29,263 nucleotides of DNA, taken from IMG/VR virus record IMGVR_UViG_3300031753_000032, positions 1 to 29,263 of that record; one strand, 5' to 3'. Made by a program: the position numbers and the translations under genes. The notes under the pieces were generated by a model. That model saw only the letters and a program-made list of their open reading frames with translations, did not search any database and was not told the DNA's origin. Positions within the stretch are counted from its first letter, which is position 1. Each line of letters opens with the position of its first letter. This DNA is from a virus. Positions 904-16,400 of this stretch are shown here, piece after piece.

Positions 904-2028
904 TTATTGAGGCTTGGAAACTTTTATAGATATCTTAGGTGGAATAAACGTATGAGCCGTATGTGGAACTGTAGCTACTGTCGCTTGCGATTGGACAGGG
1001 GCCTCAGGAGGTAGCCCAGGCGAGTCACCTGCAACTACTGTCTCACGGGCAGTAGTTAACCCTCCATTGGCCCCTGGCTGACTGACACTAACATTAACTC
1101 TCTTAACTTCAGCCAAAGCTTGCTCATTTAGCTCATCTAACTTTCTATATAATGCGGCCATATCCGGTGGATCGAAAGTTGTTGGCATCTTCTCAGCCAG
1201 TTGAAACGGTGCCCTAGTCTTACAAGGGAATGGAATCTTATCCTTACCAGCGTGAGTTCTAGTATACATGACAGGCCGCTCGACTATATTCAACTGGCCC
1301 TTGTGCTTAACATCCTCCTCCTCAGTGACCAGTTGTTCTATATGGACACTGTTGCCAAACCACTGTGTGGCCTTGCCTGTTGATTTGCGGCCAACAATAG
1401 CAGGTCCATAAACTGGTGCCCTAGTCCCTTCTTCTTCACCCTTTCCTTCTAGAGCCGTCCATAACACTTTCTCGCATGGCAGCACGTGAGTTTTCATTAC
1501 GAAATCGTATAGTTGATCTTGGGCAAAGCCAAAATATGTCATGTTCCCACCGCTGTAACTAATCACCCTCTTCTTACCGTCAACCTCTATAGCTTCTTCA
1601 CTATAGGTATATGATGGGTCTTGAGATAGGCTGGCTTTATCCCTCTTAAGTATCCTGATGAAACTATCACCCATGCTGGTCAACCCTTCTATGGCATAGA
1701 ATCCAATCTCTTCCCAGGTAGCTAATGTTGGGCTGACAAGTGGACTAGCCGGATCATCTATATCCTTTGGCCAATATCCCTGCATGGCTAGATCAATGAC
1801 ATTAGTAGTTAATTTAGGCCTAGCTATTAATACCCATGGTTGGATAATCCCTTCTTCAACTAGTGATAATAGAGGGTCATAACCACCACCGTCTAGAGTT
1901 ATCATTCTAGTTTTCTTATGATACTTATGCCATACGTACATGGCTATGAGGCCGATGTTACTGGTCTTTCTAACGCCACTAGCTCCGTAGATGAGGTCAC
2001 TTTTAGGCCTTATTCTAGTCAATGCCAT
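904..2028 (-). CDS. Sak4-like RecA-fold ATPase (AAA_24 type) with altered Walker A
   Basis: This 374-residue protein has the layout of phage Sak4/AAA_24 recombination ATPases. It shows a P-loop near residues 15-22 (GASGVRKT), an acidic strand ITLDGGGYDP, and a Walker B-like strand FYAIEGLTSM. Sak4 enzymes promote single-strand annealing or exchange with an SSB partner, and an SSB-like gene follows here. The P-loop carries Arg20 where the family has Gly before Lys (codon AGA, one transition from GGA), so ATP binding may be altered. The C-terminal part is proline- and alanine-rich and ends in PPKISIKVSKPQ, sharing PPKISI with the zinc-ribbon protein upstream in the operon. The ATG at 2028 has GAGGGG seven bases upstream and begins two bases after the previous stop, so I prefer it to the ATG at 2052. 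Confidence 0.75.
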   Translation of the reverse strand: MALTRIRPKSDLIYGASGVRKTSNIGLIAMYVWHKYHKKTRMITLDGGGYDPLLSLVEEGIIQPWVLIARPKLTTNVIDLAMQGYWPKDIDDPASPLVSPTLATWEEIGFYAIEGLTSMGDSFIRILKRDKASLSQDPSYTYSEEAIEVDGKKRVISYSGGNMTYFGFAQDQLYDFVMKTHVLPCEKVLWTALEGKGEEEGTRAPVYGPAIVGRKSTGKATQWFGNSVHIEQLVTEEEDVKHKGQLNIVERPVMYTRTHAGKDKIPFPCKTRAPFQLAEKMPTTFDPPDMAALYRKLDELNEQALAEVKRVNVSVSQPGANGGLTTARETVVAGDSPGLPPEAPVQSQATVATVPHTAHTFIPPKISIKVSKPQ

Positions 2029-2030
2029 TA

Positions 2031-2396
2031 TTATCCCCTCGGTCCCTTCCAATTTAATGTCTCGTGATCCTTATCAGTAGCTTCCCTTAGATAAGTATTG
2101 GTAGACCTGTGACATAGGCAATGTAAGCCACCTTCAATCTCTTCAGCTATCTGATTAAATTCATTATCAGCACAATGGCTGCTGTCATTATAGAAGAATG
2201 TAATATCATCTTCAGTCCAAAATTTAGGTACCTCAACAACATAATCTATGGCCATCCTAAGGACAACCGACCTCCTGACTATAACACAATCAGGAGCGTG
2301 GTAGTTGCCAAATCCGCTTACCTTCCAGCCACAATAGAAACACTTATCTTGCTCTCCGGCTGGCCTGACTCCATTATCAGTCACTGGCAGGTCCAT
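2031..2396 (-). CDS. small zinc-binding protein, unrecognised
   Basis: The product is 121 residues. A CFYCGW pair near residue 19 and HAPDC about 15 residues later form a likely zinc site, and a second Cys/His-rich stretch (GLHCLCHR) lies near the C-terminus. It is rich in acidic and aromatic residues. It sits between the 80-residue gene (3-base gap) and the ATPase (2-base gap), so it is translated with the recombination operon. GGGGGA precedes the ATG. Function unknown; a DNA- or protein-binding accessory factor is an inference from context. Confidence 0.7.
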   Translation of the reverse strand: MDLPVTDNGVRPAGEQDKCFYCGWKVSGFGNYHAPDCVIVRRSVVLRMAIDYVVEVPKFWTEDDITFFYNDSSHCADNEFNQIAEEIEGGLHCLCHRSTNTYLREATDKDHETLNWKGPRG

Positions 2397-3535: not shown

Positions 3536-4814
3536 TGACAGTGCTCCATTGTTCAGCCTCTCTAGGATGATTGGCTTCACGAGGCTTAAACTTACTATTA
3601 TCATCGAAATCCGCCGACCCCCAACAACCATCTAAATACGGGCACCTTCCTCCCCGGATGCAATTTCCATGCCCCGACCGCATAGGGAAATAATGATCTA
3701 ATAGTATAGCAGCCGTATCAGGCTCAATCGTTATCAGCCTCTCTATCTCCCTAGCCCTATCAACATCCTCTATTTCTCTGGCTAATGTCTGCCGCTTCCA
3801 TCTCTCTATCTCCCAGTCAGAGCGTGTAATAGGCGGCAATGTGATAAAGTAAGGCGATAATGTTTCCGGTTCTGATGCCAGTAGATGGTCGATCCAGGCG
3901 ATAATTCCACCGGGAAACTTATCAGCCACGGAGCCTTTATAGTAACCCGATCTTGTATGATTCTGCCCACCAGGGCACTCTTTGGACCCTCTGCCAAGAG
4001 GATGAGGTCCATTACATTTCCACTTATATTTGGCTTGATAGTCAATGCTGCCACCATTATCCTTCATCCAACAATAGATCATTGGATTATTATGGCTCCA
4101 ATTACCAGAATCCTCAGGCCACTCACTTTTACGGCCCTTAACTAGGCCAGTTATGATAGTCCCAATTATCTGCTTCCCAATCCTATTCTCAGCGGCTATA
4201 TACTCAGTTAATGTCTGCTGGTCATATCTCCATTGCTCCAGCCAATCCTTATCGGCACTCGTAACCGACTTCCAGTTATGGATAACATAATTATCGCTGC
4301 CTCTAACCTTAGATAAACAGTCAGTTCTAGTTAATAGAGTGATCTCATTCTCGCCAACCTGGAATGTGATCTCTTCTTCACGTTCAATATCAACCGGCTC
4401 ATAACTAGCGATAAACTGAGGGTAGACAATCTTATACCATCCATATATCAGAGCAGTTGTCAACTCTGACTGTTCCTTTAGGTTATGTAATAGGATATCC
4501 TTAGCAGGGCCTTCTTCAAGGTCATTAAAAAGGGGGGAAATGTTATGTACATAAATACTTCCAGCCCCTACTGCTACATCAGCTGGACTAGCCCCAGTTA
4601 CATCTGATCCTCGTAATCCACCTCTCCTTAAGCCCTCTATGATCTGTTGTATCCCATTATGTATATATGTCCCAGTTAATAGTGGCCATGCCGGTGGAAT
4701 CTCCCTAGCCGCCACAACTCCTCTATTATGATAGTAGTAGTTCCAATAGCCTCGTCTAGGACAAGTTTGCTTAGTCTCAGTTCGGCTACGGTCGATGTAA
4801 TATCTATTGGTCAT
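3528..4814 (-). CDS. PD-(D/E)XK RecB/Cas4-like nuclease with Fe-S-type cysteines
   Basis: The 428-residue protein matches the RecB-family nuclease plan. It has Cys18 near the N-terminus, the motif-I histidine in GTYIHNG (H52), Asp165 in LLTRTDCL, a motif-III region YVIHNWKSV (179-184), and a Q-rich helix (DQQTLTEY). Three C-terminal cysteines (C385, C391, C397, in NCIRGGRCPYLDGCWG) complete a four-cysteine set of the AddB/Cas4 iron-sulfur type. The usual (D/E)-x-K of motif III reads N-W-K here: Asn180 is encoded by AAC, one transition from GAC, so cleavage may be impaired. An internal segment around 267-286 carries CNGPHP...CPGGQNH, possibly an extra metal site. The start overlaps the NADAR stop (ATGA) with GAGG upstream. 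The likely role is recombination or DNA processing with the Sak4-like ATPase. Confidence 0.75.
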   Translation of the reverse strand: MTNRYYIDRSRTETKQTCPRRGYWNYYYHNRGVVAAREIPPAWPLLTGTYIHNGIQQIIEGLRRGGLRGSDVTGASPADVAVGAGSIYVHNISPLFNDLEEGPAKDILLHNLKEQSELTTALIYGWYKIVYPQFIASYEPVDIEREEEITFQVGENEITLLTRTDCLSKVRGSDNYVIHNWKSVTSADKDWLEQWRYDQQTLTEYIAAENRIGKQIIGTIITGLVKGRKSEWPEDSGNWSHNNPMIYCWMKDNGGSIDYQAKYKWKCNGPHPLGRGSKECPGGQNHTRSGYYKGSVADKFPGGIIAWIDHLLASEPETLSPYFITLPPITRSDWEIERWKRQTLAREIEDVDRAREIERLITIEPDTAAILLDHYFPMRSGHGNCIRGGRCPYLDGCWGSADFDDNSKFKPREANHPREAEQWSTVNA

Positions 4815-5227
4815 CCTACCTCGTCCCTAACTCTCATTAATATCTTACCTAGATGATTCTCCCCTATGCCATTAACAGTCCCCCAGTAACAATCTCCCCA
4901 CCAGTTACCCTCTTGAATCTCTTGGGAACCTGTCTCTAATAGCTTACCTCTAAGGGCATAATCCGCCACGAATTTCTGCTTAACTAGCTCGTACATTATA
5001 TCTAGCTTAATCTCGTTCCAATCCTTCCTTAGGCTGACTAACTTCCCCATCCTCTTGGCTTCAGAGGCCTTACAATCAACAAACTTAGCTCTATCTATAG
5101 TATTAGCACATTTAGCTGCCTGATAAGCATTCTCAACTGAGGGATAAGTAACTCCATCTAGTTTTATAAAGCAGCTCCAGAAGTTTGAGAGGAACCTATA
5201 TTTCCCTGTCAATTCACCAATCATCAT
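4811..5227 (-). CDS. NADAR/YbiA-family N-glycosidase domain protein
   Basis: This 138-residue protein is a whole NADAR domain. Visible motifs are YRFLSNF (10-16), YPSVENAYQAAK (28-39), KRMG (58-61), the LLETG segment (96-100), the WWGD turn (109-112) and GIGENHLGKILMRVR (120-134). The family acts on N-glycosidic bonds of ADP-ribose-type compounds. Members paired with DarT1 remove ADP-ribose from guanine in DNA, and others act on riboflavin intermediates. In a phage, reversing DarT-type DNA ADP-ribosylation is an attractive but unproven role. It is the first gene of the leftward operon, just downstream of a TTGACA promoter, and overlaps the nuclease start by ATGA. Confidence 0.88.
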   Translation of the reverse strand: MMIGELTGKYRFLSNFWSCFIKLDGVTYPSVENAYQAAKCANTIDRAKFVDCKASEAKRMGKLVSLRKDWNEIKLDIMYELVKQKFVADYALRGKLLETGSQEIQEGNWWGDCYWGTVNGIGENHLGKILMRVRDEVG

Positions 5228-7556: not shown

Positions 7557-7904
7557 TTACTCTCCTTCTTCAGTCTCAATCTCCGGCCCATCTGCTATTA
7601 AAGCCTCAGCCTCAGCATTAGCTTCTTCATAATCATCACTGACGGTTGTAACTGGATCACCTTCTGATTGAGCCATGACAGTCTGCTCTGATACTGGCTC
7701 AACTGTCATCCCCTGCCCTTCCGTCTGCTCTAATACCATTGACAGTGCTGTTATCCGCCTCCTATGCATAACCGGCAGCCTCTTAAGCTCCCTCGCGGCC
7801 TTCCCTAGAGCCACCATCCAGTTACTGCCTTCTACTATTACTGACTGATGGGAATCTCTACCTAGAATTGGAAAGTTAGCTGTTACTCGGAATCGACGGG
7901 CCAT
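7557..7904 (-). CDS. hypothetical protein next to the ubiquitin-like cassette (115 aa)
   Basis: The first 60 residues (RRFRVTANFPILGRDSHQSVIVEG, then NWMVALGKAARELKRL) look like a small alpha/beta domain: two strands, then a helix with an Asn-Trp-x-x-Ala-Leu motif. The rest is acidic and probably disordered, ending in EIETEEGE. GAGGAGG before the ATG is strong. It follows the JAB gene and a 64-residue gene with 2-base spacing, so it belongs to the same transcript. A partner or substrate of the conjugation system is possible but only inferred. Confidence 0.65.
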   Translation of the reverse strand: MARRFRVTANFPILGRDSHQSVIVEGSNWMVALGKAARELKRLPVMHRRRITALSMVLEQTEGQGMTVEPVSEQTVMAQSEGDPVTTVSDDYEEANAEAEALIADGPEIETEEGE

Positions 7905-7906
7905 AA

Positions 7907-8101
7907 TTAATCCTCCTCAAAAGGATAGCCTTCTACCTCATACTTGGCCTTATTACCTACATTATAGCTGTATTCATCAGGCCATAGTCTAACTACTCTA
8001 GTTAATTGAAACATGGTATTCATGCCTGTTACCACCTGCCCATATTTACAGTCAGGATGCCTTCCAATGGCATCCCCTACTATATCACTATCTGTTAGCA
8101 T
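7907..8101 (-). CDS. hypothetical 64-residue protein
   Basis: The product begins MLTDSDIVGDAIGRHPDCKY and ends in YEVEGYPFEED. The ATG at 8101 overlaps the JAB stop by 7 bases (ATGCTAA), and GGAAG and a G-run lie upstream. A longer frame starting at 8167 would run deep inside the zinc-finger coding end of the JAB gene and lacks a ribosome binding site. No motif is recognised. It is translationally coupled to the deconjugating enzyme. Confidence 0.55.
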   Translation of the reverse strand: MLTDSDIVGDAIGRHPDCKYGQVVTGMNTMFQLTRVVRLWPDEYSYNVGNKAKYEVEGYPFEED

Positions 8102-9546
8102 ACGCTTCCATACCCCCCAGGCCATCCAATCTCCGGCCTCAATCCCGTCCCTCCACAACTCACACATTCAATCTGAACTATCATATCCCCATTATTACTG
8201 TCAACCTTACCTGTCCCACTACACTCACCGCAGCTAACACTATCAACCTCAGCCTCCATCATCCTATCAATTTCCTCTTGAGTAGCAGGCCTAGTCCCAG
8301 TGGCATCAGTAATATCCACTTGACTACCGTCATCACTATTAGTATCTCTAGTCATAACTATCTGGCCAGTCTCCTCATCAATCTCAACGCTGGCTGACAT
8401 TATATCCTCTTGTTCGGCCATAGTCAGCGAGTTAAGTGGAGGCTTGTTAACATTCTCCTTATCAACCCACTTCCCATCCACTTTAACAACCTCCACATAT
8501 TGCTCCAATTTCTCATTCCATCTATGCGGTTTGCCGTTAATATGAAAATGCCACTCCTTGTTAGGATCATAACTGGCAATGGTTGGCCTGGATGGATTAC
8601 TAACACTGACACTATTATCTATCTCAGGTGTCCTATATCCCACAGCCACTTGCTTATCCTTAACCCTCGCCTGCCTTAACCTCTCACCACTCTCAAATGC
8701 CTTATCTAATGCCATTACATATCTATTATCACTGGCATCGCCAACGGTTAATATTTCACTGTAATTCTTAATCCACTGGCCACATTCTAACTGATGTCTT
8801 ATCATAACCTTGGCTTCACCTTTGGCATTAACAACTATCTCCACAGGCCAGTTAGAATGTCTCAAGTCCTCAGCTGAGAAGAAAACTCCCATCTGCACAT
8901 GAGAATGGATGGCTCCTATTGTATTCGGTAGATATTCAGTAAAATCATCATCTACATCCACATGGCTACTATGGGCCACTTGAGGCGGAAAGTACATCTT
9001 CCTAATCTCATACCTCGGCCCTCTATCGTCCTTAACAAACTGGCCAGTGAGATAAGCTAGCCACTCAGTGTTATAATCCTCTGCTAGGCTAATCCATTCA
9101 TTCCATAACCTAGCAGCAACATATACCTTAGGTATCTTAGCAATTGGGCACTGACCCTCAGTAATATCAGCACTATTAACTCTGAATATCCCTTTGTCAC
9201 TATCACCGATAGGCTTATAGCCGATATCTGATAGTTTGACATTAACATCAGGTCTAGCCTGCCCTCTAAACCATCCCAGTTGCTGCTGATAACTATTATC
9301 CTTATTACTGTCACTATCACTACTAGCATTACTGACATAATGCCCATTACCGTGATAATAAACTGGTAACCTTCTATCAACAGGTGGCGCTACTGTCCCA
9401 TGACCTACTTGTTGGCCACTTGCCTCAGTAGCAGCTATCTCAGTCACTCTCTCCTCAAAATGCCCAGTTATAGGAGTATCCTTAACTAGTCTAGCTAACC
9501 TCTCAGCTTCCATCTGCCGCCGTCTGGCCTTAGATCGCTTGCTCAT
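8095..9546 (-). CDS. JAB/MPN (JAMM) metalloprotease with C-terminal DnaJ-type zinc finger
   Basis: This 483-residue protein carries a complete JAMM site. Glu161 lies in TEWLAYLTG, and HSHVQMGVFFSAED (214-227) fits H-x-H-x7-S-x2-D exactly, so a zinc-dependent isopeptidase is predicted. Family members remove or process ubiquitin-like tags. The N-terminal 130 residues are low-complexity. The middle (about 330-365) includes EWHFHINGKPHRWNEKL. The C-terminus has two CxxCxGxG units (CGECSGTG at 439, CVSCGGTG at 461), as in DnaJ zinc fingers, giving a possible substrate-binding module. AGGAGG lies seven bases before the ATG, which overlaps the E1 gene end by 17 bases. The coupling to E1, E2-like and Ubl genes marks it as the deconjugating enzyme of the cassette. 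Confidence 0.88.
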   Translation of the reverse strand: MSKRSKARRRQMEAERLARLVKDTPITGHFEERVTEIAATEASGQQVGHGTVAPPVDRRLPVYYHGNGHYVSNASSDSDSNKDNSYQQQLGWFRGQARPDVNVKLSDIGYKPIGDSDKGIFRVNSADITEGQCPIAKIPKVYVAARLWNEWISLAEDYNTEWLAYLTGQFVKDDRGPRYEIRKMYFPPQVAHSSHVDVDDDFTEYLPNTIGAIHSHVQMGVFFSAEDLRHSNWPVEIVVNAKGEAKVMIRHQLECGQWIKNYSEILTVGDASDNRYVMALDKAFESGERLRQARVKDKQVAVGYRTPEIDNSVSVSNPSRPTIASYDPNKEWHFHINGKPHRWNEKLEQYVEVVKVDGKWVDKENVNKPPLNSLTMAEQEDIMSASVEIDEETGQIVMTRDTNSDDGSQVDITDATGTRPATQEEIDRMMEAEVDSVSCGECSGTGKVDSNNGDMIVQIECVSCGGTGLRPEIGWPGGYGSVC

Positions 9547-10321
9547 TGTCAGCCTCCTGAGGATTAGTAATCAGATGGCTATCCTCAACCTCTTCAATCT
9601 CAATCTCTTCATCAGCCTCATTAATATCAGTAATCAACACTCTATTACTAGTATGTCCAACATCTTCAGTCCCATCAGTTCCCCAATTAACATTAATAGT
9701 CCTATCATAGTTCCTGACATCTCCAAGTAGGACATAGTATGCCGCTATACTAGCTGCCATCGTACACGGTCCAACAAACACTGGCACACTTCTATATCCC
9801 ACATTCTCCTCATCAGCCGTTGCCATAGTCGCTGGGCTGAATGTCACTGTCATATGATGCCCATCAGCGCCACACTCAATATAGCCAATATACCTATAAT
9901 TATCCTTTCCAGCCTTAACCACCTCATCATAAACCATCCGCCTAGACTTTAAACTGTCAGTTGTCACCACCACCCACTGATATCCCTTCAGCCTATCTCT
10001 ATGAATCTCAGGCTCAAAGTTCTGCCTAGGGATAACACTAACTCCAGCCCTTAGTGACTGTATATACTCAGCCATGGCCACTGCCTTATTAACGCCAACC
10101 TTATCCGGCCCAAGCGGGAATCTATTAAGATTATTCTCGCTAATAACATCACTATCATATATATCTATCTCAGCCACTCCTGCTAGGCCTAGATATAGTG
10201 CTATCCATGATCCAATCCCGCCGCATCCTACTATGGCTACCTTCTGCTGCTGATTAATCCCTAATCCCTCATGTCGCTCATATAGGATGGGATTATCCCT
10301 ATTACTATCATTACCATCCAT
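9530..10321 (-). CDS. E1-like ThiF/MoeB-fold adenylating enzyme
   Basis: The 263-residue protein shows the ThiF/E1 signature. It has a Rossmann loop VGCGGIGSW (31-39), IYDSDVISENNLNR (54-67) with the Asp and Asn-x-x-Arg that contact ATP, Lys near 74-79, and the strand WVVVTTDSLKSRR (116-128). These enzymes adenylate the C-terminal glycine of a ubiquitin-like protein and often pass it to a cysteine. Candidate cysteines are Cys150 (IECGADG) and Cys186 (FVGPCTMAAS). Which one, if either, is catalytic cannot be decided by eye. The tail after residue 230 is very acidic. AGGAGG precedes the ATG. It starts 12 bases after the E2-like gene and overlaps the JAB gene, so stoichiometric expression is likely. 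Confidence 0.88.
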   Translation of the reverse strand: MDGNDSNRDNPILYERHEGLGINQQQKVAIVGCGGIGSWIALYLGLAGVAEIDIYDSDVISENNLNRFPLGPDKVGVNKAVAMAEYIQSLRAGVSVIPRQNFEPEIHRDRLKGYQWVVVTTDSLKSRRMVYDEVVKAGKDNYRYIGYIECGADGHHMTVTFSPATMATADEENVGYRSVPVFVGPCTMAASIAAYYVLLGDVRNYDRTINVNWGTDGTEDVGHTSNRVLITDINEADEEIEIEEVEDSHLITNPQEADNEQAI

Positions 10322-10333
10322 AGTAACCTCCTA

Positions 10334-12238
10334 TTAAATAGTGTTAGTAGTATCGTCAATTACCTCTAGATGCTCATCCTCCTCCACAGCCTCATTATCT
10401 ACCTCATCTACTACTCTAATGTCATCCTCAACGTTAATATCAGCCAGTTCCTCTCCTCTAGCCCTCCTAGCCTCTCTCAAACTCTCAACGTTAAACGTCT
10501 CCCTAGCCTCAACCTCAACTGGGACTCTCTCAGCGTCATTAAATAGCTCATCACCTAGGTTAAGGGCATCCTTGTAAACCCCCATATCTATAATCTTCTT
10601 AAGGTTAATTGGAGTCTGCGCTTGAATATCAGGATGCCAGTTGTTATAAGTAGACAACAGGCTCATCATATTAACTTCACTGCTACCTCTGTTAATAGCA
10701 GCCTGGAGCCTCCTATAACTATCAATATCTGTCATCCTCTCAGGTAGTCCTTGAAGCTCCATACAACATCTACTACTAGTTAAATGTGGCAGCTGATATC
10801 CACTAACCTCTATTATCTTAGCACTCTTATAAGCATAACTGCCATTAGTATGGTCAAACGGCAGCCAGATAGTCACCGTATGATAATTAGCTAGATGGAC
10901 TATTGACTGGTCACTGCCATCTAAATTACGATTCCACTTGATAATCTCACTCTTAGTAACTCTAGCCCTCCCTGTCCCACTTGTCTTATAATGCGTCATA
11001 CTAAAGCTATTAACCTTAGTCGATATCTCCATTCCTACTGCCATCTTATATACACTGCTATCCCATTTTCTAACCTTAATATAGTTATCAGCTATCCACT
11101 GCGGGATAGTCATAATGCTAGTTAATGCTGCCCTTTCCTTGGCTATCTGCTCTCTTGCCAACCTTAACTGCCTCTCAGCGTTACTAATGACAGCGGCTGC
11201 CTCTAACTGCCCAGTGGCCTTGATCTTAACAGCACTATCTCTCGCTGATCCCACAATCCTCTCTCTAATCGCAGCCATTGCCCTGCCAGCCTTGATAGCC
11301 CCTTTTGGCTGAAGGGTAAATAGTTGATCGCCAATGGCTATTATTGCTGGCTGAGTTACCATTGCCAGTTGTAACTCCCTATCATATATACTATTACTAA
11401 AACTCCCAGTGGCTTCCCTAGCCTGCTTAGCCAAACTAGCCTGAGTGATAGCCTCTACTAATATCGCTGGGTCCACTCCATACGTGTCAATGGCCCGGAT
11501 GATAATATACTCTAATTCCTTCATCCATGTGCCCCTGCCTAACCTTCTGACAATCCCCTTATCTAGATATTCTTTAATCTCATACTTAGTTGGCATAGGG
11601 CCATTAACCACTGTCAACTGCCAGTTAATGCTGCCATATCTATCAGCCCTTCTATCAATGGATACTCTTAGTCTAGGAACTGAGACTGGCAGCTCACTAG
11701 TCACTGGAGTTATTACTTCTACTGGCATTCCCACCACCCTCAACTCTCTAGCATACATTAAATAACAATGTCCTGGGCAATTCCCATGTGCGCCGATTCT
11801 ATGGCCATCAAATCTATCATCAAATACTACATGGACATATCCCACTAGATCAGTAGAAGTATTAGCTATCACTCTCCCTCTATGAGTCTCGCTAAACCTT
11901 CTACTGCTATCTACTCCTAATGCCATCGTCCCAACATTCTCCACTATAGTCCCCGGCGGGAATCCCTCTACAAACTCAGAGGGATTATAATTAACAGTGT
12001 TAACATTGGCCATAATAGTCTGCTCCACTATCTCAATCTCATTCCCAAACATCCAGCAACAATGTCCATTATGGCCATCAGTTGTATCTATAGCATGGCC
12101 AACAAACCCCTCCCCCCAGTTAACATGATATGCATCACCTTCTACAGCAAACACTGTCCCTGTCATCCCTACATTCAATCTGCCAGTCGCAATCCCTCTA
12201 AACGTCGGCCTGACAATGCTGCCAATAGTAATAGCCAT
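10334..12238 (-). CDS. multidomain protein with E2/UBC-like C-terminal region and duplicated SH3-like N-terminus
   Basis: This 634-residue protein lies between the Ubl and E1 genes, where an E2 is expected. Residues 5-71 and 95-169 look like two copies of a beta-rich module ending in GHNGHCCWM...EIEIV and CPGHCYLM...ELRVV. A helical stretch with a coiled-coil (331-371) follows. The region 380-540 has a UBC-like order: TVTIWLPFD, AKIIEVSGYQLPHLTSSRCC (473-492), MELQG, a helix, then YNNWHPD. Pro-His followed by Cys491/Cys492 recalls the His-Pro...Cys of divergent prokaryotic E2s. The tail is acidic. GGAGGAGGG precedes the ATG at 12238, so I prefer it to 12253. The E2 call is an inference from position and motif order; a pure scaffold is the alternative. 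Confidence 0.55.
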   Translation of the reverse strand: MAITIGSIVRPTFRGIATGRLNVGMTGTVFAVEGDAYHVNWGEGFVGHAIDTTDGHNGHCCWMFGNEIEIVEQTIMANVNTVNYNPSEFVEGFPPGTIVENVGTMALGVDSSRRFSETHRGRVIANTSTDLVGYVHVVFDDRFDGHRIGAHGNCPGHCYLMYARELRVVGMPVEVITPVTSELPVSVPRLRVSIDRRADRYGSINWQLTVVNGPMPTKYEIKEYLDKGIVRRLGRGTWMKELEYIIIRAIDTYGVDPAILVEAITQASLAKQAREATGSFSNSIYDRELQLAMVTQPAIIAIGDQLFTLQPKGAIKAGRAMAAIRERIVGSARDSAVKIKATGQLEAAAVISNAERQLRLAREQIAKERAALTSIMTIPQWIADNYIKVRKWDSSVYKMAVGMEISTKVNSFSMTHYKTSGTGRARVTKSEIIKWNRNLDGSDQSIVHLANYHTVTIWLPFDHTNGSYAYKSAKIIEVSGYQLPHLTSSRCCMELQGLPERMTDIDSYRRLQAAINRGSSEVNMMSLLSTYNNWHPDIQAQTPINLKKIIDMGVYKDALNLGDELFNDAERVPVEVEARETFNVESLREARRARGEELADINVEDDIRVVDEVDNEAVEEDEHLEVIDDTTNTI

Positions 12239-12259
12239 AATCCCTCCTCCCATCCCCTA

Positions 12260-12333
12260 TTAATAGTAATAATCATAGGCCAGAAGTTGTTATTATATTA
12301 TGATAGCTTCTGGCCCATTGTTATTACTATTAA
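12260..12333. repeat. large composite hairpin between the Ubl and E2-like genes
   Basis: Outer arms TTAATAGTAATAA (12260-12272) and TTATTACTATTAA (12321-12333) are a perfect 13-bp inverted repeat. Inner arms GGCCAGAAG (12278-12286) and CTTCTGGCC (12307-12315) are a perfect 9-bp repeat. A symmetric 5/5 internal loop separates the two stems, and the terminal loop is 20 bases. The hairpin directly abuts the Ubl stop codon. There is no T-run after it in the leftward direction, so mRNA protection or processing fits better than full termination. Confidence 0.75.
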
Positions 12334-12600
12334 TCAGCCGCGAGCGTCTTTTGCGAAAATTTCAAACGTCCTCACTCCCTTCAGTGTCTTATTCGCGTCC
12401 GGCTGCTCAACCTTCTTGCCATCAACCTTAATACTAAATGACCTAAGGCCAGCCTTCGTCGCAATCGCCTCTGATGCCTGACCAATGGTATTAGTATCCG
12501 GGATCGTCCCAGTCACCTGTCCATTGACCATAACTGTCACTAGCTTAGGCTCATTGCTACCTGTCCGCTTAACCACCTTTACTTTCTTCTTCGTTGTCAT
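12334..12600 (-). CDS. ubiquitin-like (beta-grasp) protein
   Basis: This 88-residue protein has a lysine-rich N-terminal extension, then a beta-grasp pattern: hairpin KLVTVMVNGQ/VTGTIPD, helix NTIGQASEAIATKAG, strand FSIKVDGKKV, and a final strand TFEIFAKDARG. Length and order match small prokaryotic ubiquitin-like proteins (Prok_Ub/PRTRC-C/BilA type). It ends in Arg-Gly rather than Gly-Gly. A terminal glycine directly before the stop would allow adenylation by the downstream E1 without prior processing. GGAG lies six bases before the ATG. It is the first gene of the cassette, followed by the hairpin and the E2-like gene. Lacking a database comparison, I rate the fold as probable; the E1-E2-JAB neighbours raise confidence strongly. 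Confidence 0.78.
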   Translation of the reverse strand: MTTKKKVKVVKRTGSNEPKLVTVMVNGQVTGTIPDTNTIGQASEAIATKAGLRSFSIKVDGKKVEQPDANKTLKGVRTFEIFAKDARG

Positions 12601-13875: not shown

Positions 13876-14178
13876 CTACTTGCTGGTCTTAACTGACAAC
13901 TTAGACCTGTTTTCACTGATAAATCTGTCTAACACTCCAGCCTTGATACTTTGAATGAGAGGCTCCCATTGGCTCACGTACAATGTGGTAGGGTAAGCGC
14001 CCAGACCTACGGCTGAGATAGCGCCCTTTTCGCTGACCATGAATTTGACCCTAGAGCTAATCTGCGCCTCTAGTTCGGCAATTCTCAGTTTAAGTTGCTC
14101 TACTTCAGATGGCGTCCCATTCGTCCCAGTAGCATTAACTTGATTACTACCAGTAACTTGCGCTGTATTCGTTGTCAT
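13876..14178 (-). CDS. coiled-coil hypothetical phage protein (100 aa)
   Basis: A Thr/Asn-rich N-terminus is followed by a coiled-coil-like helix (EVEQLKLRIAELEAQI). A conserved-looking block VSEKGAISAVGLGAYPTTLY comes next, then SQWEPLI and a C-terminal helix. The VSEKGA...GLG..P.TLY..QW pattern occurs in many phage and plasmid small proteins of unknown role. AGGGAGAGG precedes the ATG. A 170-base structured leader (14179-14348) lies directly upstream. Confidence 0.65.
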   Translation of the reverse strand: MTTNTAQVTGSNQVNATGTNGTPSEVEQLKLRIAELEAQISSRVKFMVSEKGAISAVGLGAYPTTLYVSQWEPLIQSIKAGVLDRFISENRSKLSVKTSK

Positions 14179-14209
14179 AATTATCCTCTCCCTATTGAGC
14201 TATCACTTG

Positions 14210-14348
14210 CTAGATGCTCACATATAGGGGCATAAGCTAAAGCTAGAGCGTAGACTTAGACAGGATGGCTCTGTAGGCTATCAAGAGCGCCACGTAGCTA
14301 CGGGTTAGCTATCTGCCCCTAGGTGAGAGCATCTAGTTAATTGCTCTC
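14210..14348 (-). promoter_or_regulatory. riboswitch-like structured leader upstream of the 100-residue gene
   Basis: CTAGATGCTC (14210-14219) pairs with GAGCATCTAG (14327-14336), and TAGGGGCA (14225-14232) with TGCCCCTA (14314-14321), across a 5/5 internal loop. This closes a domain of about 127 nt with further internal pairing (AGCTAA/TTAGCT and GCTCT/AGAGC). One arm can instead form a competing hairpin, GAGAGC (14325-14330) with GCTCTC (14343-14348). Mutually exclusive pairings in a leader suggest a switch. No known riboswitch class is recognised. Confidence 0.5.
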
Positions 14349-14466
14349 AAACTAGCTTAACGTCTAGTTATCGTAGACTGTTTCGTTGGCCAGTCTCGCC
14401 AGTCATTCGATTTTTGCATATCGCACCAAAAGTGAGTTAGGCTCACTCCACAATGGCCGACAAATG

Positions 14467-14557
14467 GCGTTTGCAGCCCGCTACAGCCCGTTTCGCATGG
14501 CGACCTGGGGGAAACCATGTCGCCTAAGTCCGGTCGCCGTAATCGGGCTGCAAACGC
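14467..14557. repeat. 14-bp perfect inverted repeat with nested stem
   Basis: GCGTTTGCAGCCCG (14467-14480) and CGGGCTGCAAACGC (14544-14557) enclose 63 bases. Inside, GGCGAC (14499-14504) pairs with GTCGCC (14519-14524). This is the longest stem in the CG-rich island. Confidence 0.75.
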
Positions 14558-14963
14558 TAATGTCGCTAACTTGTGTCCGCGATATTCGCTAATGTGCATT
14601 GCGCGACCGTCAAAACAGGTGGGATACGCGGCCAGGGGGTCGAACGAATCAAGGGAAATGCGACAATCGGCACGCACGCTATCTCTGCGTTGCCTCATGT
14701 GACACGATTCGCCTAGTGTGATCGTCGAGTGTGGCGTTGTTTTGCCTGTCTAGCTAGATTGACGGTCGGGTAACGCACATTAGCTTGCTCATTGCAGACT
14801 CAAATCCTCCGAGTCACGGTCGGCGCGCCCTACCCGGCTTAGCCTGTTCGCCAATTCGCCGTGATGTATGCGACCGGAGCATTCCGGCCAGGTCCAACCT
14901 GGCCTATGCCGACCGTTCCCACTTGGATTAAGTCTGCTGGCGCTATAGCCGACTAACGCGATG

Positions 14964-15284
14964 TTAGCCGACTAGAGCCATTTTACGGTCGCTCACTCCG
15001 CGTTGAGGTTCAGGGACAACGGCAGACTTGACAGCTAGTCCGCCCCGTGATACCGTTATGGGTGGGCGAAATTCGCCAGTGCCATTAGCGATTTTAATTT
15101 CCGGCATATGGCTCAATAGCCGACCATCAACACGTTTGCCATCGCGTCTTACTCGCGTTAGCTGTCCATTGCAACGTTTACAGCGACCTGGCAATGATTG
15201 TCGGTGCTGCAAGAAATTGCAGATAGAGCAACGCGCGATTCGCGGCGAACCAAACTCGATTGCGTGTTGGCGTCGGTGCAACAT
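14964..15284 (-). CDS. possible zinc-ribbon protein in the CG-rich island
   Basis: The 106-residue frame contains RCSICNFLQHRQSLPGRCKRC, two CxxC knuckles 14 residues apart, followed by a basic stretch (GQLTRVRRDGKRVDGR). Such spacing is typical of zinc ribbons and unlikely by chance. Against it, there is no ribosome binding site before the ATG. The codon choice (CGC, CGT, GCG) is unlike the AGA/AGG/CTA-rich genes around it, and the region is full of inverted repeats. It could be a recently acquired gene, a remnant, or a coincidence within structured DNA. The frame stays open upstream to a TAA near 15373 without a better start. Confidence 0.4.
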   Translation of the reverse strand: MLHRRQHAIEFGSPRIARCSICNFLQHRQSLPGRCKRCNGQLTRVRRDGKRVDGRLLSHMPEIKIANGTGEFRPPITVSRGGLAVKSAVVPEPQRGVSDRKMALVG

Positions 15285-15447
15285 TGAGGTCGCCAGGATA
15301 TCACGGCATAGCGAATCCGGCTTTGCGGCCCAGGTTGAGTTAATTGTGGATAATCGCGTTAACTCATTGATTCGATTGCATTAGCGCGAACCAAAAATAA
15401 CTGAAAATAATCCTTGACAAGTTTTCGCAAGTTTGCAGGTTGCGATA

Positions 15448-15518
15448 ATTCCGGTCGCGCCAGGTCGATTCCGGTCGATTCCGCTCGCGGCGACCTGGCC
15501 GCTCGTCATTTCCGGTCG
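15448..15518. repeat. iteron-like ATTCCGGTCG repeats, helically phased
   Basis: Copies of (A/T)TTCCGGTCG start at 15448, 15468 and 15509, with a one-mismatch copy (ATTCCGCTCG) at 15478. The spacings are 20, 10 and 31 bases, close to whole turns of the helix. They lie next to a long AT-rich stretch (15600-16260). This arrangement resembles initiator-binding iterons at replication origins. Confidence 0.5.
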
Positions 15519-15676
15519 CCAAGTCGGTTGCGCTAATTGCGATAACTTGCGCTATCACAAGTTTCGTGCAATTTGATAGGCGCAACCTAATCAGATACGT
15601 ATGACAATGATATTGACGATAATGTAAGGATAGACGAGTTATAGGACTAGTAATAGACGAGCGATAGGAATTGATA

Positions 15677-15728
15677 TTGACATTAGCTTAATACGACCAT
15701 GTTATAGCTATGAGTCAATCATTGTCAA
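15677..15728. promoter_or_regulatory. overlapping divergent promoters
   Basis: On the plus strand TTGACA (15677-15682) is followed after 17 bases by TGTTAT (15700-15705). On the minus strand TTGACA (15728-15723) is followed after 16 bases by TATAAC (15706-15701). The two -10 elements overlap, so the promoters should compete. The leftward one would transcribe the CG-rich island. Confidence 0.45.
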
Positions 15729-15781
15729 CCTTATCTATCTCATAGACACTAACATTGTCATTAACCTACCCTCCATTAAGA

Positions 15782-15856
15782 GGGGGTCAGCATCAATTCT
15801 CAAGGCCATGGTCAGCCTAATAGCTCCCTCGATGTGGATTGCTTGCGGAGACCCCC
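15782..15856. repeat. 7-bp GC inverted repeat, long loop
   Basis: GGGGGTC (15782-15788) pairs with GACCCCC (15850-15856) across a 61-base interior. A T-run (GTTTTTG) occurs about 20 bases later on the plus strand, too far for a standard terminator. It may be part of a structured transcript from the rightward promoter at 15677. Confidence 0.35.
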
Positions 15857-15909
15857 ATATATAACATCATCAGTTTTTGTCAGTAAACCGGCTTATTGAT
15901 AACCTCAGC

Positions 15910-15930
15910 CTGGGGCCTGGGGCCTGGGGC
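15910..15930. repeat. triple tandem CTGGGGC repeat
   Basis: Three exact 7-bp copies of CTGGGGC stand in tandem in non-coding DNA between AT-rich stretches. They could be slippage products or a binding-site array. Confidence 0.6.
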
Positions 15931-16153
15931 CAATATTAACCATAACCATCTTAACCTAATGTAATCGAAAATGGTTAATGACTAGATTAATGGCCTTAAT
16001 ATAGTCATAATAGCTAGTCCCTCCCGGTGTGACGCATAACCTATTGATTCTATTATCTATAGCAACTATTAAATATATTTTCTAATGGTATTAGGCTCCA
16101 TTATCATTGTAACTTATAGTATATAATGTAGATATAGCTATAGTAAGCCGGAT

Positions 16154-16169
16154 TACTATAATTATAGTA
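16154..16169. promoter_or_regulatory. 16-bp perfect palindrome just upstream of a strong promoter
   Basis: TACTATAATTATAGTA is a perfect palindrome ending 12 bases before the -35 hexamer at 16182. It shares ACTAT/ATAGT half-sites with the palindromes at 7491-7531, so it is likely an operator. Confidence 0.5.
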
Positions 16170-16181
16170 TAAACATTTTCC

Positions 16182-16209
16182 TTGACATCTATAAATACTA
16201 TGATATAAT
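16182..16209 (+). promoter_or_regulatory. strong consensus sigma70 promoter, rightward
   Basis: TTGACA (16182-16187) and TATAAT (16204-16209) are both perfect consensus hexamers with a 16-base spacer. This is the best promoter in the window. It points toward 16216-16400, which has no gene, and beyond that is antisense to four leftward genes. Confidence 0.75.
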
Positions 16210-16215
16210 TTAGGG

Positions 16216-16400
16216 CACGTGGGTGTATGGGAGATATACTATACTTAGTATAGTATATAACTGACTCGGAATCAATAGGTTAGAGTGGATGATTAGGCCT
16301 AATGTGACTATGGCCAAGGTGGGTGGTAGGCTTAACTCTAATAGACTGAATAGCTTGCCTAACCCACTGGGAGGGGGATGCTATTTCAATGATATTAGGT
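16216..16400 (+). ncRNA. possible small RNA from the strong promoter
   Basis: No substantial gene follows the promoter. The stretch holds the palindrome ATTAGGCCTAAT (16292-16303) and a bulged stem pairing GTGGGT and TAGGC (16319-16331) with GCCTA and ACCCAC (16357-16367). A structured transcript of roughly 150-180 nt would fit. I see no clear terminator, so the 3' end is unknown, and the RNA might extend antisense into the leftward genes. Confidence 0.35.
16234..16258. promoter_or_regulatory. 11-bp-arm palindromic operator downstream of the strong promoter
   Basis: ATATACTATAC (16234-16244) and GTATAGTATAT (16248-16258) are perfect arms around TTA. The site covers about +19 to +43 of the expected transcript, a classic position for a repressor operator. 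It could alternatively act as an RNA hairpin at the transcript's 5' end. Confidence 0.6.

Follow-up and report, generated by a model that had tools for sequence, protein, structure and literature searches.

A predicted ubiquitin-like conjugation and deconjugation cassette in diverse phages, often encoded near replication genes

We describe a four-gene cassette in a phage contig, IMG/VR record IMGVR_UViG_3300031753_000032, whose full length of 29,263 bases was analyzed and is referred to below as the window. Four consecutive leftward genes, running from 12600 to 8095, encode a ubiquitin-like protein (Ubl), an E2-like protein, an E1 enzyme and a JAB protease, and together they very probably specify a functional system for Ubl conjugation and deconjugation. 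The four open reading frames (ORFs) lie where the original prediction, that a phage carries the whole set of Ubl, E2, E1 and JAB, had placed them, and at the level of sequence that observation holds; the assignments of Ubl, E1 and JAB are strong and that of the E2, the weakest of the four, is moderate. The association goes beyond chance because the identical gene order recurs in divergent contigs. We lean toward a working phage cascade that acts during phage DNA replication. The contig belongs to a phage, since a large terminase, a portal of the P22 kind and a major capsid protein of podovirus type are among the products of its rightward genes, and as these genes share the contig with the cassette, bacterial contamination was set aside. 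What is known of Ubl cascades in bacteria concerns mainly defense against phages; here phages carry complete writer-and-eraser sets.

All four genes are on the minus strand and are as tightly spaced as first noted. The Ubl gene (12334-12600, 88 residues) is separated by 80 nucleotides from the E2-like gene (10334-12253), which is followed after 12 nucleotides by the E1 gene (9530-10321, 263 residues); the E1 gene overlaps the JAB/JAMM isopeptidase gene (8095-9546, 483 residues) by 17 nucleotides. A Shine-Dalgarno-like sequence stands ahead of each of them. The E2-like protein is listed with 639 residues, although its start is more likely the internal ATG at 12238, because the Shine-Dalgarno-like GGAGGAGG stands before this codon, giving 634 residues.

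The 88-residue Ubl had been proposed to be a beta-grasp protein, and modeling supports this. An AlphaFold2 model, computed with 18 relatives in the alignment, has a pLDDT of 80.8 (about 88 in the core) and the predicted topology bb-a-bb-a-b, which is that of ubiquitin. The top 50 rows of a Foldseek search of the PDB are all ubiquitin, SUMO, ISG15, FAT10 or other ubiquitin-like folds at probability 1.00, with E-values of only about 3e-3 to 8e-3 despite that probability, and VIA-align gives Z scores of 7-8 across 63-85 residues. The C-terminus, ending in KDARG, is exposed in the model, and the relatives in loci L130, L070, L054 and L123 (related loci are given by L numbers) have the endings KDARG, KETRG and KDTRGNS. 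The window Ubl hence combines the two attributes of a ubiquitin-fold modifier, a beta-grasp domain and a C-terminal glycine.

The gap between the Ubl and E2-like genes contains an RNA hairpin (12260-12333, minus strand) with a folding energy of -31.6 kcal/mol and a z score of -8.4. Such structure recurs among the cassettes: across 41 of them the Ubl-E2 gaps have a median z of -3.4, against -0.9 in 256 control gaps taken from these loci (Mann-Whitney p 2e-9), and several of the hairpins finish in U-runs resembling intrinsic terminators. The element is a probable attenuator or processing site, whose likely effect would be an excess of Ubl over the enzymes.

The E1 assignment, made originally on GCGGIGSW and NLNR motifs, agrees with a match to PF00899 (2.2e-26), in which a single ThiF match at residues 25-160 corresponds to one adenylation domain of the ThiF/MoeB type. 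When ten relatives are combined into a profile, structures of ubiquitin E1 are matched at 5e-27, with ThiF, MoeB, UBA5 and Cap2 lower down. Besides GCGGIGSW and NLNR67 the protein has K79 and D122; the relatives show no variation in the glycine loop or at Arg67, Lys79 and Asp122, and these three residues fit Arg73, Lys86 and Asp130 of MoeB (PMC12355090). The candidate catalytic cysteine, Cys186 in a GPC motif, is shared by the members of the window's clade and by L067. An E1 of ThiF/MoeB size, together with Ubl profile searches that touch ThiS, the RelA TGS domain and SAMP2 (all beta-grasp), is what one would expect if Ubl and E1 worked like ThiS/ThiF or MoaD/MoeB to deliver sulfur, for example for tRNA or nucleotide thiolation, with the JAB protease freeing the carrier. 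We regard such a role as very improbable, since most cassettes include an E2-like gene with a conserved cysteine and no rhodanese or sulfur-transfer gene was recognized beside the cassette. A thiamine or molybdenum gene set was likewise set aside for want of metabolic partners.

The JAB protein carries the exact HxHx7SxxD site reported initially, HSHVQMGVFFSAED (8866-8907, minus strand), and, with Glu161 added to His214, His216, Ser224 and Asp227, its JAMM site is complete. A chance occurrence was set aside: shuffling the window gave an expected count of 0.00 for the motif. Taken alone, the window protein scores below the Pfam cut-off (21.2 versus 25 bits); all 13 aligned relatives match Prok-JAB, the best at 1.4e-8, and their profile matches the AMSH-like protease (3.9e-5) and Rpn11 structures. 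Two C-terminal CxxC pairs (Cys439/442 and Cys461/464) are zinc-ribbon-like and resemble the DnaJ zinc region.

The E2-like protein is laid out as an N-terminal extension, a coiled coil at about residues 321-380 and a UBC-like domain at about 380-546 that contains PH490 and Cys497. The putative active-site motif, LPHLTSSRCC, maps to 10763-10786 on the minus strand, with the His490 codon at 10786-10784 and the Cys497 codon at 10765-10763. Both residues are invariant across 12 relatives, in the frame xPH-x6-C. E2 enzymes carry an HPN...C arrangement, which this frame resembles. At the equivalent gene position other phage families have HPH-x5-9-C-L-G or HYH-x-D-C-W-G, and 17 others keep H-P-H, C and G without exception. 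The window family is linked by hhalign to the DCWG family (E 4e-6, probability 87%) with the histidine and cysteine aligned, and by BLASTP to the E2-like protein of L130 (3e-21). The DCWG-type and marine HPH-type profiles are left unlinked by hhalign (E 0.016, probability 3%), so that a single origin of all phage E2s is not established. When the full-length model, itself of low confidence, is compared by VIA-align, UBC/E2 enzymes aligned over model residues 380-546 make up about half of the 50 rows (Z 3.7-4.7 over 108-120 residues), and they are the majority among the rows that the long helix does not account for. Within residues 1-175, an extension of about 170 residues that is found in none of the relatives looks like two SH3/KOW-like repeats (G..V......W/F D...G.........GHC), and it is possible that this part binds substrates. 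In L141, two tandem E2-like genes, of 329 and 248 residues, lie between the Ubl and E1 genes.

The window's own sequences are too diverged for single-sequence scans: scans of viral contigs with the E1 and the E2-like protein found nothing, nor did tblastn of the E2-like and JAB proteins against named phages, so that motif and profile searches were needed. A JAB-motif scan of viral contigs yields at least 119 loci, and in most of those listed a ThiF/E1 gene adjoins. An E1 profile scan gave 208 related stretches, 80 of which were retained. Taken together, a JAB gene lies no more than three genes away in 131 of 167 distinct viral E1s among the matches listed, and the E2 motif occurs in the gene just upstream in 91 of 117 testable cases, compared with 9 of 416 other ORFs (2.2%). 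Two gene orders are found, Ubl-E2-E1-JAB (n=38, the window included) and Ubl-E2-JAB-E1 (n=93), and order and motifs are kept in relatives diverged to 20-30% identity. A synteny search, suggested as a check on the original prediction, accordingly recovers the cassette in divergent viral contigs, with E1/JAB homologs usually accompanied by E2 and Ubl genes. The expectation that such a system would be unusual in a phage is contradicted: judged from sequence, the window cassette belongs to a broad phage repertoire, most of it without annotation, which includes the cultured crAss001 and, for E1 and JAB, phage FpV4.

In the E1 tree the window clusters with L130, L054, L123, L070 and L136 (support 99/96). 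L130 is the nearest relative: it has the cassette in common, with an E1 that is 49% identical and with matching Ubl and E2-like proteins, and it also shares a Sak4-like ATPase (47%) and a 430-residue nuclease-like protein (33%). Genomes of bacteria and archaea were searched as well, and of their best 80 matches only about nine have an E2 motif plus JAB or Ubl beside the E1, and one locus from this set, L214, is also an IMG/VR virus (27,887 bp record). E2-E1-JAB cassettes in the bacterial genomes L216 (a complete Omnitrophota bacterium chromosome), L217 and L218, which may be of prophage or host origin, fall within the viral E1-JAB tree branch, those of L217 and L218 with a Ubl candidate ending in VKAG. 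L165, L166, L170, L174 and similar viral contigs pair a 185-residue E1 with a JAB-like HTHPFGxAYFSGTD motif, with no E2 motif or Ubl recognized.

Among named phages, E1 and JAB are carried by crAss001 and its relatives, by Flavobacterium phage FpV4 and by Dulem virus 41. The cultured gut phage crAss001 (L005 3307-7717) encodes a predicted Ubl precursor (gp79), an E2-like protein (gp78, HSHVSS...PCTG), JAB (gp77) and E1 (gp76), for which the labels in its record are hypothetical protein, metalloprotease and thiamine biosynthesis protein. Beyond its invariant glycine gp79 has a tail of 135 residues. In the crAss-type Ubl family assembled by iterated profile searching, this glycine is present in 30 of 30 members at residue 75-126, in a Ser-Gly context in 27 of 30, and is followed by 2-206 residues; a precursor that JAB cleaves would be expected to have this layout. 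Searching the PDB by sequence with one crAss-type Ubl returned nothing. Because crAss001 is in culture, what phages ubiquitinate is testable at once. Xanthomonas phage PhiXhv-12 (L004 1757-5633) carries a Ubl ending in SGG, an 892-residue Cys-rich E2-like protein (HPHMAVPSSQESHGSLCLG) and an E1, and no JAMM motif or gene was found in the 10 kb examined; its set adjoins DNA topoisomerase genes. MT835529 (L002, "Bacteriophage sp."), found with the E1, was rejected as a phage cassette as it looks bacterial-chromosomal, with molybdopterin/cofactor and ABC-transporter genes. No paper on phage-encoded Ubl cascades came up in a literature search that ran without bioRxiv and most subscription journals, so earlier reports are possible, and Yutin et al. 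2021, on crAss-like phages, mentions neither ThiF, thiamin nor metalloprotease.

The window set is similar in logic to several known systems and lacks their defining features. BilABCD, a bacterial ISG15-like anti-phage operon (PMC11354881, PMC12135933), likewise unites Ubl, E2, E1 and JAB in one operon. Bil tags phage structural proteins. BilA has two Ubl domains, BilD an inactive and an active adenylation domain plus a Cys domain, and BilB a CEHH motif (PMC11354881), whereas the window Ubl has one beta-grasp domain in its 88-residue model and the 263-residue E1 a single adenylation domain. In CEHH the cysteine is followed by Glu at +6, His at +8 and His at +13 (PMC11354881); the window protein, which at 639 residues also differs from Bil, as does carriage of the set by a phage, has Leu503, Glu505 and Ile510 there. 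These differences bear on the idea that the cassette is a Bil-like weapon with which the phage tags virion proteins of superinfecting competitors. The four-part logic is that of Bil and phages are known carriers of defense systems; we nevertheless consider this distinctly unlikely, because the cassette departs from Bil in having one Ubl domain only, an E1 of a single domain and no residues at the CEHH spacing, and because it is conserved within core replication modules.

The type 6d bacterial operons of Iyer, Burroughs and Aravind (PMC1779556) also have a stand-alone Ubl with C-terminal glycine and separate E2-like, E1 and JAB proteins. They differ in that they encode a further, helical protein and a JAB-N domain and in that no histidine precedes the cysteine of their E2, whereas in the window His490 is invariant seven residues before Cys497 and no helical-protein gene lies between Ubl and JAB. 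The phage ubiquitin case found there (Iyer et al. 2006, PMC1779556) is the tail-assembly TAPI/TAPK pair. CBASS Cap2 and Cap3 share the E1 fold and the JAB protease; unlike type II CBASS, the window set has separate E1 and E2 genes and a Ubl, the PADLOC E1-E2 models match the adenylation part only, and no CD-NTase was found among the ten neighbors scanned with PADLOC. PRTRC systems also place a ThiF-type enzyme on a mobile element, with Ubl-, E2- and JAB-like partners. Against the PRTRC ThiF model TIGR03736, however, the window E1 scores 31.8 bits (cut-off 144.75), and none of the PRTRC partner models (A, B, C) matches the window Ubl, E2-like or JAB protein. In the UFM1-UBA5-UFC1 and ATG7-type systems one finds, as here, a single adenylation domain with a cysteine on the crossover loop (PMC12355090 for ATG7) and a Ubl with a single glycine, many phage relatives having one extra residue to trim; there is no sequence relation past the folds, and the phage set has a JAMM rather than a Cys protease.

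The genomic context points to replication. In cassettes of the E1-JAB type, a sliding-clamp gene (DNA-polymerase sliding clamp, phrog_223, 5e-9) lies one gene 5' of the Ubl gene in 15 of 31 and two genes 5' in 6 of 31. Near the JAB-E1 type (n=93) are a Sak4-like ATPase in 35, an SSB-like gene in 36 and a primase in 25, the "Sak4-like" and "SSB-like" labels in these marine loci coming from sequence reading and not from a family match. The window has its own Sak4-like ATPase of a recombination module (904-2052, minus strand), 47% identical to L130:9210-10241, which matches phrog_124 Sak4-like at 8.2e-9. We place the cassette with replication because replication and recombination neighbors recur across three phage groups with different replication machineries, and a core phage function therefore fits better than an accessory weapon.

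This placement bears on counter-defense, in which the phage cascade would tag host defense proteins, or would saturate or strip host Bil/CBASS conjugation. The chemistry is common to host Bil and CBASS, the JAB protease could cleave host conjugates, and the window has a NADAR-domain gene, of a family tied to the removal of ADP-ribose marks. We judge counter-defense unlikely all the same: entire phage groups retain the cassette in their replication module, where a variable accessory island would otherwise be its place, an E1 and E2 of its own would be superfluous for a decoy or eraser, and no association with known anti-defense genes was seen. PADLOC, run on the cassette and ten neighbors, recognizes E1 only through a generic adenylation domain, gives one weak match for JAB (0.0066) and one candidate-system match for the NADAR gene. 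The earlier suggestion that the phage blocks host Bil/CBASS by decoy found no evidence here, given how little PADLOC returned and that the neighbors are replication and recombination genes.

Several observations weigh against a working cascade tied to replication. The recurrent neighbors may be there because they are expressed at the same time or inherited together, and not because they share a function; the L070 cassette is near apparent structural genes; and the window, itself a fragment of its phage, yielded no sliding-clamp gene. The GPC cysteine is absent from the E1s of the clamp-linked branch, and transfer chemistry may therefore differ there. Finally, the profile and structure searches proposed for all four proteins succeeded for three of them: the Ubl matches ubiquitin-like folds, and E1 and JAB match their families, while the E2-like protein and its relatives gave no Pfam or PDB sequence match, profile searches included, and no E2 Pfam model. 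Its full-length model is of low confidence (pLDDT 49), and plain Foldseek with the E2-like model gave noise only. A catalytically dead E2, as in polyUbl-type bacterial operons, with non-covalent or E1-only modification, would agree with such a low-confidence fold and missing profile match. It would not readily explain why 12 diverged relatives all retain the His and Cys, and 17 others the H-P-H, C and G, and we hold it to be extremely improbable.

Returning to the cascade, we propose a reaction sequence built on the assigned parts. E1 would adenylate the C-terminal glycine of the Ubl, which would then move, probably via Cys186 of E1, onto Cys497 of the E2-like protein. The latter would attach the Ubl to targets, perhaps selected by its long N-terminal part, and JAB would take the Ubl off again; in relatives with residues past the glycine it would also mature the Ubl. 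The hairpin after the Ubl gene would probably maintain the Ubl excess throughout. The likeliest targets would be proteins at phage replication or recombination, either from the phage replisome itself, such as its clamp, SSB or recombinase, or host factors drawn to it. A clamp gene one gene away in 15 divergent cassettes recalls eukaryotic PCNA modification and gives a testable substrate hypothesis.

Ubl and E2 families unrecognized by Pfam sit in the replication module of widespread phages, and protein tagging may be a common, overlooked part of phage replication. In its boldest form, which we put forward tentatively and think unlikely, Ubl conjugation would be a core, previously unrecognized control of DNA replication in clamp-bearing, crAss-like, marine and the window's phage groups: an attenuator hairpin would keep Ubls in surplus, phage E2 families that are not yet catalogued would put them on the clamp, SSB or recombinase of the phage, and JAB would take them off, much as PCNA is ubiquitinated and SUMOylated in eukaryotes.

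Other parts of the window deserve brief description. Between the leftward and rightward blocks, about 2 kb (14200-16400) contain no convincing ORF and have a raised G+C, 0.52 at 14001-15000, and an Rfam search of the window, this ORF-poor region included, gave zero matches. The NADAR-domain gene (4811-5227, minus strand; PF08719 6.5e-22; PADLOC candidate PDC-M42C 2.2e-9) could counter a DarT-like host defense. A possible fifth cassette gene (7557-7904, minus strand) follows JAB, a small gene at this place being conserved in three members of the window's clade; its 115-residue product is 30-34% identical to those of the post-JAB genes L054:10975-11352 and L123:1260-1682, and might serve as an adaptor or be itself a substrate.

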